This document shows, one piece after another, positions 4,081 through 62,522 of a DNA stretch of 64,000 nucleotides; position 1 is the stretch's first letter, and every line of letters begins with the position of its first letter. Location of the stretch: the NCBI RefSeq assembly GCF_007655305.1, contig NZ_VLOG01000017.1, positions 43,005 to 107,004 of the forward strand, given 5' to 3'. Origin of the DNA: Algoriphagus algorifonticola. GTDB lineage: Bacteria; Bacteroidota; Bacteroidia; Cytophagales; Cyclobacteriaceae. A model generated the notes under the pieces. That model was given only the letters and a program-made list of their open reading frames with translations. It had not been told where the DNA came from and did not search any database. The position numbers were made by a program, and so were the translations under genes.

Positions 4081-4213
4081 GATGAAATCGAGCACGACGC
4101 AAGCGACACACAGAGAGACGCCCCGATGTATCGGGGAATCAATGCGAAGATTCTCCCGAATCAAGTTCGGGACAAGCTATCTGACCTCTAAAAATCAAAA
4201 TATAAACCGATGA
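4081..4213 (+). repeat. Dispersed hairpin element, copy A
   Basis: A full-length copy of a repeat seen four times in the window. It starts with GATGAAATCGAGC and ends in AAACCGATGA. It holds two perfect hairpins: CCCCGA/TCGGGG at 4121-4136 (loop TGTA) and TCCCGAA/TTCGGGA at 4154-4172 (loop TCAAG). The ATG within its terminal GATGA is the start codon of the gene at 4210. From its own ATG at 4082 the element reads open for 43 codons and stops at TGA 4211-4213, overlapping that start codon as ATGA. Compared with copy D it differs by four substitutions and one inserted base. Confidence 0.93.
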
Positions 4214-45318: not shown

Positions 45319-45449
45319 ATGAAATCGAGCACGACGCAAGCGACACACAGAGAGACGCCCCGATGTATATGGGAAAATGAGTGAGATTCTCCCGAATCAA
45401 GTTCGGGACAAGCTATCTGATATCTAAAAAACAATTTATAAACAGATGA
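45319..45449 (+). repeat. Dispersed hairpin element, copy B
   Basis: A second, more divergent copy that starts at ATGAAATCGAGC and ends in AACAGATGA. The CCCCGA/TCGGGG hairpin is destroyed (3' arm changed to TATGGG), but TCCCGAA/TTCGGGA at 45390-45408 is intact. The frame from its ATG stops after 21 codons. Its terminal GATGA is also the first bases of copy C, so the two copies are in tandem with a five-base overlap. Confidence 0.9.
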
Positions 45450-45553
45450 AATCGAGCACGACGTAAGCGACACACAGAGAGACGCCCCGATGTATCGGGG
45501 AATCAATGCGAAGATTCCATCTGACCTCTAAAAATCAAAATATAAACAGATGA
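45445..45553 (+). repeat. Dispersed hairpin element, copy C
   Basis: A shortened copy. The CCCCGA/TCGGGG hairpin is perfect at 45485-45500, but 24 bases including the whole second hairpin are missing. A C-to-T change relative to copy A makes its seventh codon TAA. It ends in AACAGATGA 14 bases before the start codon of the FAD oxidoreductase. Confidence 0.92.
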
Positions 45554-45567
45554 ATAGTAACTGAATT

Positions 45568-47418
45568 ATGAAAAAGATAACTTGTTTGAGCCTTCTGTTT
45601 TTTGGCTTTTTAAACCTTCTTTTTGCTCAGGAAAAATATGATGTATTGATTGTGGGAGGGGGAGCAAGTGGGACAGCTGCTGGTATTGCTGCAGCAAGAA
45701 TGGGAAGTAAAACTCTAATCGTGGAGCCTACCACTTGGTTAGGAGGAATGCTCACATCTGCGGGTGTTTCAGCAATTGACGGGAATCACAGGCTGCCTTC
45801 AGGCATTTGGGGTGAATTTAGAGATAGTTTAATTGCTTATTATGGTTCTCAACAAGCCCTTTCCACGGGCTGGGTTTCCAATACACTTTTTGAGCCTAAA
45901 GTGGGGAATGAGATTTTTCAACGAATTGCAGCTTCGGAACCAAATCTTAGAGTTTCATTTCAAAGCGAATGGAAGTCAGCCCAATATGAAGACAATCGAT
46001 GGACTTTGGTTTACGAAAGGGATGGTCAAACTCGAAAGGCTAATGCTCCCATTTTGATAGATGCAACGGAGCTGGGGGATGTGGCAGCATCTTTAGGATT
46101 ACCTTACCGATTGGGCATGGATTCCAGGGCTGAAATAGGAGAGGAGTTTGCGCCCGAGAATGGGAATGATATTGTTCAGGACCTGACCTATGTAGTGACG
46201 CTTCAGGACTATGGGAAAGGAAGTGATCAAACTATTCCTAAGCCAAACAATTATGATCCGGATGAGTTCGCCTGCGCCTGTGCCCATGCTGATCCCATCA
46301 CAGATAACGCCCCAACTTTAGACTGTGATAAAATGCTGGCTTATGGAAAACTTCCGAATGGAAAGTACATGATCAATTGGCCGAATTGCGGAAATGATCA
46401 CTATGTGAATTTAGTGGAGTTGAGTGACGAGGAACGAAAAATGGAACTGGAAAAAGCCAAACAGACAAGTTTACGATTTGTTTATTATATCCAAAATGAA
46501 CTCGGATATAAGCATTTGGGAATTGTGGAGGATGAGTATCCAACAGAGGATAACTTGCCAATGATTCCTTATCACAGGGAGTCTAGAAGATATTATGGCT
46601 TGGTAGATTTTACCCTGCCCTATCTAAAAAGTCCTTATGCTGCTCCTAATGCCTTGTACAGAACAGGCGTGGCAGTAGGAGACTATACGATAGATCACCA
46701 TCATAAAAAGAATTTGAATGCTCCAGAGATCGATTTTATCAAAATTAGAGTTCCAAGCTATAATGTACCATTAGGTGCTCTGATTCCTAAAAATCATCCC
46801 GCTCTAATTTTAGCAGAAAAAAGTATTTCTGTTTCCAATATTGTCAATGGCGCATCCAGGCTTCAGCCGGTGGTATTGGGGATAGGGCATGCGGCTGGAG
46901 TCTTGGCAAGTATTGCTTCTACAAACTCAAAAAAGTTAGACGAAACATCTATTAGGCAAGTACAGTGGGGGCTATTGAATCAAGGTGCCTATATCATGCC
47001 GTTTTTGGATATGAATCCAAGAGACCCACACTTTAGGGCGATGCAGAAAATAGGTGCAACAGGAATTTTTAAAGGAGTAGGGGTTCCATATTTATGGGCT
47101 AATCAAACTTGGTTTTATCCGGAAAGGCCTGTTGCGGAATACGAATTGATGTCAGGATTAAAAGAGGTATATCCACACTTGAATGAATATTGGGGAGCAT
47201 CCGGGGATTACTTGACGGGAGAAAGGTTTCAAGCCTTTTTGGAAATGATAAAAGAGAATACTCCCTTTCTTGAGATCGCTCAGGTTTGGAAAAGGAAGGG
47301 CTTGGAAGGTGATTTTCGGACAGATAAAATCCTCAATAGGAGAGAGGTTTCAGTTATTTTAGATGAAATTCTGGACCCATTTTCAAAACCCATTAGTTGG
47401 AGTGGAAAATATGATTAG
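45568..47418 (+). CDS. Exported FAD-dependent oxidoreductase (FAD_oxidored family)
   Basis: A 616-residue protein with signal peptide at 1-20 (LLFAQ). The FAD-binding motif VLIVGGGASGTAAGIAAARMG follows at once (VLIVGGGASGTAAG shown), then TLIVEPTTWLGGMLTSAGVS. GRHAAGVLA-like GIGHAAGVLASIASTNSKK is the later flavin motif. The family (PF12831) is common in glycan-degrading loci of this phylum, with unclear substrates. It lies downstream of the chitin-type locus behind two tandem repeat copies. A cysteine-rich stretch (FACACAHADPITDNAPTLDC) near residue 232 is unusual. Confidence 0.88.
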   Translation: MKKITCLSLLFFGFLNLLFAQEKYDVLIVGGGASGTAAGIAAARMGSKTLIVEPTTWLGGMLTSAGVSAIDGNHRLPSGIWGEFRDSLIAYYGSQQALSTGWVSNTLFEPKVGNEIFQRIAASEPNLRVSFQSEWKSAQYEDNRWTLVYERDGQTRKANAPILIDATELGDVAASLGLPYRLGMDSRAEIGEEFAPENGNDIVQDLTYVVTLQDYGKGSDQTIPKPNNYDPDEFACACAHADPITDNAPTLDCDKMLAYGKLPNGKYMINWPNCGNDHYVNLVELSDEERKMELEKAKQTSLRFVYYIQNELGYKHLGIVEDEYPTEDNLPMIPYHRESRRYYGLVDFTLPYLKSPYAAPNALYRTGVAVGDYTIDHHHKKNLNAPEIDFIKIRVPSYNVPLGALIPKNHPALILAEKSISVSNIVNGASRLQPVVLGIGHAAGVLASIASTNSKKLDETSIRQVQWGLLNQGAYIMPFLDMNPRDPHFRAMQKIGATGIFKGVGVPYLWANQTWFYPERPVAEYELMSGLKEVYPHLNEYWGASGDYLTGERFQAFLEMIKENTPFLEIAQVWKRKGLEGDFRTDKILNRREVSVILDEILDPFSKPISWSGKYD

Positions 47419-50911: not shown

Positions 50912-50974
50912 TTTAAACCCGGATTATGCATTAGAATCTGTAGTGAGAGGTCAAACCGCAATAAAATCAAGTAT
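50912..50974 (-). repeat. 63-bp inverted repeat, right copy
   Basis: Exact reverse complement of 1..63. Beyond it, on the side facing the DUF4397 gene, lies a composite hairpin whose outer arm GTATTTAGC begins inside the repeat at 50971. Confidence 0.9.
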
Positions 50975-62392: not shown

Positions 62393-62522
62393 CTGTTTAT
62401 ATTTTGATTTTTAGAGGTCAGATAGCTTCTCCCGAACTTGATTCGGGAGAATCTTCGCATTGATTCCCCGATACATCGGGGCGTCTCTCTGTATGTCCCC
62501 TTGCGTCGTGCTCGATTTCATC
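62389..62522 (-). repeat. Dispersed hairpin element, copy D
   Basis: Full-length copy in reverse orientation. Hairpin CCCCGA/TCGGGG at 62466-62481 and an extended nine-pair hairpin TCTCCCGAA/TTCGGGAGA at 62428-62450. On the minus strand it starts with GATGAAATCGAGC and ends in AACAGATGA, whose ATG is the start codon of the gene at 62392. One inserted base relative to copy A shifts its frame, which then ends at TAA about 20 bases early. Confidence 0.93.

Follow-up and report, generated by a model that had tools for sequence, protein, structure and literature searches.

Mycobacterial interspersed repetitive units (MIRUs) are short bacterial repeats associated with the name of Supply and with the motif 'DTGA'. 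In the transposon IS608, as described in the parts of PMC5934647 that deal with it, guides located 5' of hairpins pair with the cleavage sites, and insertion occurs 3' of a short target that is kept in the left flank; the sections of PMC8266576 on REP elements give the same plan for those repeats. Here we describe a repeat family of Algoriphagus algorifonticola and its relatives that occurs far above chance and is real and mobile, and for which we found no prior description in open-licence papers.

Four copies of the element, all with the same (A-type) left end, lie in the window, by which we mean the whole 64,000-nt stretch analysed, part of a 4.45-Mb genome assembly in 68 contigs (G000). A sequence-only reading of the window had placed the four copies at the starts and on the strands given in Table 1 and had defined their shared ends as ATGAAATCGAGC and AACMGATGA, and we agree on both counts. 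The right limits move inward, however: the ATGA that follows every right end is flank, which sets the boundaries listed here. At copies A and D the flanking ATG is, as that reading had seen, the start codon of the next open reading frame (ORF). At copy C, the ATG at 45550 opens just 4 codons; the start of the FAD oxidoreductase ORF lies 18 bases on, at 45568. Profile matches bear out that the downstream genes are unrelated (Uma2, 3e-29; FAD_oxidored, 8e-88; M23, 2e-4, below its cut-off). A tRNA search of the window found none. The window also holds a 63-base inverted repeat (1-63 and 50912-50974; 100% identical) that is unrelated to the element.

Table 1. Copies of the element in the window, with their inner motifs and flanks.
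Feature	Position	Strand	Context or basis
Copy A, A-type, 128 nt	4082..4209	+	directly before the Uma2 ORF start codon at 4210
Internal palindrome CCCCGATGTATCGGGG of copy A, a module exchanged for ATTATAAT-like sequence in other copies	4121..4136	+	
Palindromic insert TCCCGAATCAAGTTCGGGACAAGCTA in copy A, splitting the inner guide (GATTC|CATCTG)	4154..4179	+	comparison with other copies
Uma2 ORF start codon, flank of the copy A right end (target ATGAAA)	4210..4212	+	
Copy B, A-type, adjoining copy C	45319..45445	+	
Copy C, A-type, without the guide-splitting palindrome	45446..45549	+	
Unbroken inner guide motif ATTCCATCTG of copy C	45514..45523	+	
Right-end arm CAGATG of copy C, pairing with CATCTG at 45518-45523; the arm's ATG is flank	45547..45552	+	covariation
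Copy D, A-type	62393..62521	-	abuts the start codon (62392) of an ORF with weak similarity to peptidase M23

Across G000, A-type left ends occur at 56 places with at most 3 mismatches, compared with 5 for a reversed-pattern control. A second, B-type left end, ATGAAATGCCCATGAGGAAAAATCTC, occurs at 37 places (control 0), and a right end common to both types, ATTCCATVTGRCC-N12-26-ACAVATGA, at 53 (control 0). The elements are about 85-130 bp long and can be arranged in tandem: 14 of 64 parsed right ends run straight into another element, 11 of these 14 with a B-type copy before an A-type copy. Inner palindromes, CCCCGATGTATCGGGG and others, have been gained or lost between copies, as judged from sequence around elements and hence from a sample biased towards them.

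Beyond G000, blastn searches detected the element in 14 of 38 relatives, corresponding to 14 of 24 members of the genus and 0 of 14 genomes from other families of the order. Sampling 196 genomes (84 genera) of the bacterial family, we found the right-end pattern in 71, from 37 genera, with 1 to 105 copies per genome and a control count of 0 in each of the genomes listed; its distribution is patchy. Among named records, the exact 19-base left end was found in 46 stretches, 20 of them in records titled Algoriphagus or Lunatimonas; 26 come from unrelated taxa, and we took them as chance matches. Spread has been recent in genome G009, where 10 of 17 copies have a counterpart in the same genome at 98% identity or more; the corresponding counts are 5 of 53 in G000 and 0 of 11 in G021. 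The 19-kb stretches from G103 and G106 yielded one parsed copy. In G021 (C1:835000-838800; L257, L259 and L261), three A-type copies lie among REP-like arrays with GACCACGAAGTGGTC-like palindromes.

Mobility is evident from sites that are empty in one genome and filled in another. The clearest case is a junction between two genes that we take, from sequence motifs, to be infA and rpmJ (trpD, below, is named in the same way). Of 30 loci fetched for this junction, 12 are filled and 13 are empty with an exact junction and no gap. The remaining loci have a 77-base spacer (G004), an unrelated 63-base spacer (G062 and G049) or are unparsed (G011 and G041). The empty sites read ...ACTGAT|ATGAAAGTT and the filled sites ...ACTGAT|ATGAAATCG...CAT|ATGAAAGTT; the closest relative, G067, is 99% identical to G000 here. 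Weaker empty sites, with flank identity of about 72-82%, were found at C10, at the start of a trpD-like gene in G009, and in a family of IS200 transposase genes (a paralogous site filled in G009 and empty in a G019 relative). G000 itself contains a duplicate 5' part of a RAYT gene that is interrupted after ATGGCTTTTTCAT, and the other copy reads through. At that locus (L171; G000:C25:1-2245), a RAYT-like gene is followed by its duplicated 5' fragment with a B-type insertion after TTTTTCAT, and the sequence found downstream is repeated at G000:C63:477.

The empty sites thus show precise insertion, and the element is mobile, as the sequence-only reading had proposed. Its companion proposal, that the element replaces the 5' leader of the gene, does not survive the same comparison: these are pure insertions, and since the native leader is kept upstream at every empty and filled pair, the element leaves it in place. 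As in the IS200/IS605 family, insertion falls precisely 3' of a short target that is kept in one flank, an arrangement that would look the same if a short target of constant length (up to ATGAA) were duplicated.

The target is ATGAAA, or TTTCAT on the other strand, which forms 60 of 64 right flanks, in agreement with the shared flank described earlier; two others are ATGAAT and two are different, one of these a parsing slip. The copies have one orientation relative to this flank. Of the two findings that the sequence-only reading had named as refuting it, random orientation and unshared flanks, neither was observed. The earlier account of an element that inserts at ATGAAA gene starts therefore holds for the hexamer, for the single orientation and for the frequent use of gene starts; the shared feature, however, is ATGAAA and not the start codon, and at TTTTTCAT copies are also found within transposase genes or where these end. 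Likewise, the statement that copies always lie directly upstream of a gene describes most of them: genome-wide, an ORF of 38 codons or more starts, in the orientation of the element, at 40 of the 49 right ends that are not in tandem, a MIRU trait that is not exclusive here, and at 9, including copy C, none does (the row C67:5813, with ATGATA, has a mis-set boundary and was excluded from the 49).

We compared this share with the background of the window, where, as a crude measure, the gene start was the first start codon in any ORF of 100 aa or more. Outside elements the window contains 111 ATGAAA sites, of which 90 fall in the coding interior, 9 at ORF starts and 12 elsewhere. By the ORF criterion used for the right ends, 40 of 49 of these are start-like compared with 11 of 21 window sites outside the coding interior (Fisher p=0.018); because the allowed sites are already start-like in 11 of 21 cases, the excess at starts is moderate. 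The base at -1 of the left end is A in just 2 of 70 free copies; for comparison, A precedes 7 of 31 ORFs that begin with ATGAAA (p=4e-6) and 41 of the 117 ATGAAA sites in the whole window.

A preference for start codons invites comparison with MIRUs, which, according to the parts of the review PMC12548453 that treat them, are apparently mobile and have an ORF coupled to the gene at whose start codon they insert. By analogy, mobility would be tied to the overlap of start and stop codons, and a small ORF within the element would be translationally coupled to the downstream gene and make insertion harmless. Copy A can be read in this way: an ORF begins at its own ATG and ends in a TGA that overlaps the start of Uma2. 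The frame between the left ATG and the right end is uninterrupted in 27 of 84 A-type copies; over all 117 copies the count is again 27, and shuffles gave a mean of 16 and a maximum of 26. None of 33 B-type copies is open, however, element lengths are spread over all three frames (47, 40 and 30), and some insertions lie away from start codons. With so few open copies, we rejected such an ORF as a general feature of the element, and we consider this explanation improbable.

The element also has an inner motif that can pair with both of its ends. On the gene side, the inner sequence ATTCCATNTG pairs with the right end CANATG. The variable base of this helix forms a Watson-Crick pair in 103 of 117 parsed copies and an A.G in 10. 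Among the rows listed for genomes other than G000, 122 of 130 pair, with all four pair types represented (as read by eye), and shuffles gave a mean of 41 (maximum 61) overall and 68 (maximum 88) within genomes; these shuffles, like those for the far end, ignore the relatedness of copies. Read on the antisense strand, the helix reaches into the flank, with CANATGGAA pairing with TTTCAT|NTG through 9 pairs that include one T.G wobble; the A.C that is invariant on the gene-sense strand (127 of 130) is this wobble on the opposite strand.

The far end, ATGAAATNNNN, pairs with NNNNATTCCAT, in combinations such as CGAGC/GCGAG (with a tandem G.A), GCCC/GGGC, ATCC/GGAT and GGCC/GGCC. At variable positions 222 of 448 combinations pair, compared with 143 +/- 10.5 (maximum 181) in 5000 shuffles; because the search fixed ATG[AT]A[AG]T and ATTNCAT, the informative positions are 8-14 and the guide side of position 4. 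RNAalifold recovered the far-end helix in B-type and not in A-type copies; run on A-type copies by themselves, it recovered the gene-side helix. Judged by complementarity, the element would therefore have a guide for both cleavage sites, as IS200/IS605-type elements do, with a single guide apparently serving both ends. In window copies A, B and D this guide is split by a palindrome. Predicted DNA folding energy is lower for the antisense strand in just 23 of 115 copies, the gene-sense strand being slightly more stable.

The same pairing could act in RNA. If the element were a cis-acting leader, its right hairpin, CAUNUG...CANAUG, would hold the start codon and regulate translation, and copies would have spread because they are useful. 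The start codon does lie within the covarying 6-bp stem. Moreover, infA-rpmJ copies are retained across many species, and in G002 and G006 the stem is changed on both sides, to CATTTG/CAAATG. Against this, at infA-rpmJ three genomes (G003, G071 and G020) have lost the hairpin and a fourth, G012, has it broken, 11 orthologues give folding z-scores between -2.0 and +0.3, and the alifold energy is beaten by 19 of 200 column shuffles; the shared hairpin in single folds is suggestive, and since neither alifold nor z-scores support it we set aside a selected RNA structure at this locus. The genes downstream of the window copies are unrelated, no Rfam match in the window exceeded its gathering score, and the pairing is present also where a start codon is absent. 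Overall, a regulatory leader seems an unlikely basis for the family, if slightly less so than the coupled ORF. The infA-rpmJ spacers of G050, G003, G071, G002, G006 and G020 are old, divergent copies, most of which, when folded one at a time, form a long AT-rich-armed hairpin that was not significant in our tests.

We favor a reading in which these are non-autonomous mobile elements that probably move like IS200/IS605-type single-strand transposons. On the strand opposite the gene, the order is flank TTTCAT, then the element as NTGTTTATAATTTG...CANATGGAAT....ATTTCAT. The inner guide CANATGGAA can pair with both ends: with TTTCAT|NTG at the target-side junction and, through its ATGGAAT part, with ATTTCAT at the far end. 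Both cuts, each made after TTTCAT, would come from a Y1 (HUH) transposase acting in trans, and the predicted circle junction is ATTTCAT|NTGTTTATAA. The guide would then select a new TTTCAT, which is ATGAAA on the other strand and the start of many genes in these hosts. Insertions within genes would be lost by selection, so that the survivors would be concentrated immediately upstream of start codons, each oriented towards the gene. The preference at -1 (A in 2 of 70) is left unexplained by this model.

A Y1 enzyme acting on the antisense strand is proposed because the plan matches that of IS608, with a target on one side, a similar far end and guides pairing with cleavage sites. Seven Y1_Tnp genes are present in G000, and Y1 genes occur in 52 of 59 genomes of the genus. 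None of the 56 Y1 loci that we examined, part of a larger set, is bracketed by element ends. Five of them contain pieces of the element: L171, L316, L400 and L403, plus a left-end-like match in L325. We rejected the first four as bracketed transposase loci, since in each the copy is compact and inserted next to the Y1 locus or within it. A search of the collected loci for a longer, transposase-bearing copy, with ends 190-3000 bp apart, returned one pair, 221 bp apart, whose longest ORF is 72 codons. Two tandem IS200-type transposase genes, 1281 bp apart, with palindromic repeats beside each, are found at L165 and L167 (G000:C4:20217 and 21498).

Genome G014 carries elements and has no Y1 match; the copies parsed there (4, from 21 stretches) are old, no two being more than 91% alike, which weakens it as a counter-example to Y1. 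Since no Y1 gene among the 56 loci is bracketed, G014 has no Y1 match and fold energy favors the sense strand, we infer the enzyme and the strand rather than assign them. The same two observations on Y1 genes could mean that the element is moved through guide pairing by a different enzyme, such as an unknown HUH, tyrosine or other recombinase. This is possible, though we hold it to be considerably less probable than the Y1 model: the layout, with a short target on one side, a similar far end and an inner motif complementary to both, is that of IS200/IS605 in the parts of PMC5934647 that describe it. As regards a lagging-strand template preference of the IS200/IS605 kind, insertions are co-directional with replication in 34 of 67 cases in G009 and G021, by a hand count made without a gene baseline and with the origin assumed at dnaA.

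The Y1 model, if true, would let one short sequence explain both where the element jumps and why the host tolerates it: because the base-paired target happens to be a gene start, the element would land between leader and gene and break neither. It would also offer a testable mechanism for start-codon-inserting repeats, the mobility of MIRUs being described merely as apparent in the sections of PMC12548453 concerned. A bolder extension, less likely than not, is that one DNA guide, matched to the hosts' commonest gene start, ATGAAA, serves both ends and seeds start codons family-wide, and that after insertion the guide folds onto the mRNA start codon, so that each insertion would be a ready-made translational leader. 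If the model holds, the element is also close in concept to single-strand transposons that can be re-targeted, and its 6-base target and the guides that covary across dozens of genera could teach pairing rules. For annotation it matters that hundreds of leaders, as well as some small ORFs, belong to repeats in this bacterial family.

Compared with described systems, the element is a start-codon-inserting repeat by behavior and IS200/IS605-like by anatomy, and we assign it to neither group. Like IS608, as portrayed in the relevant parts of PMC5934647, it keeps a short fixed target in one flank, and its cleavage sites would be chosen by guides near hairpins. Unlike IS608, it has no transposase inside and none bracketed by its ends at the Y1 loci examined; a single inner guide could serve both ends, where IS608 has two guides; and its target is the 6-nt TTTCAT rather than TTAC, with pairing that takes in 3 element bases. 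It resembles REP and REPIN elements and their RAYT (TnpA-REP) partners in being a short, palindrome-bearing, multicopy repeat in a genome with RAYT genes (in G000, L170 above the NCBIfam cut-off and L171 below it). It differs from them in its greater length, in lacking a GTAG tag by a simple palindrome and in its strict orientation to ATGAAA, and the RAYT genes inspected have other palindromes beside them. Finally, the element is like the MIRUs characterized in the corresponding parts of PMC12548453 in being short, high-copy and apparently mobile, and in lying at start codons in gene orientation; it departs from them in having no conserved ORF, in using ATGAAA outside start codons as well, in belonging to a different phylum and in its guide-like pairing.
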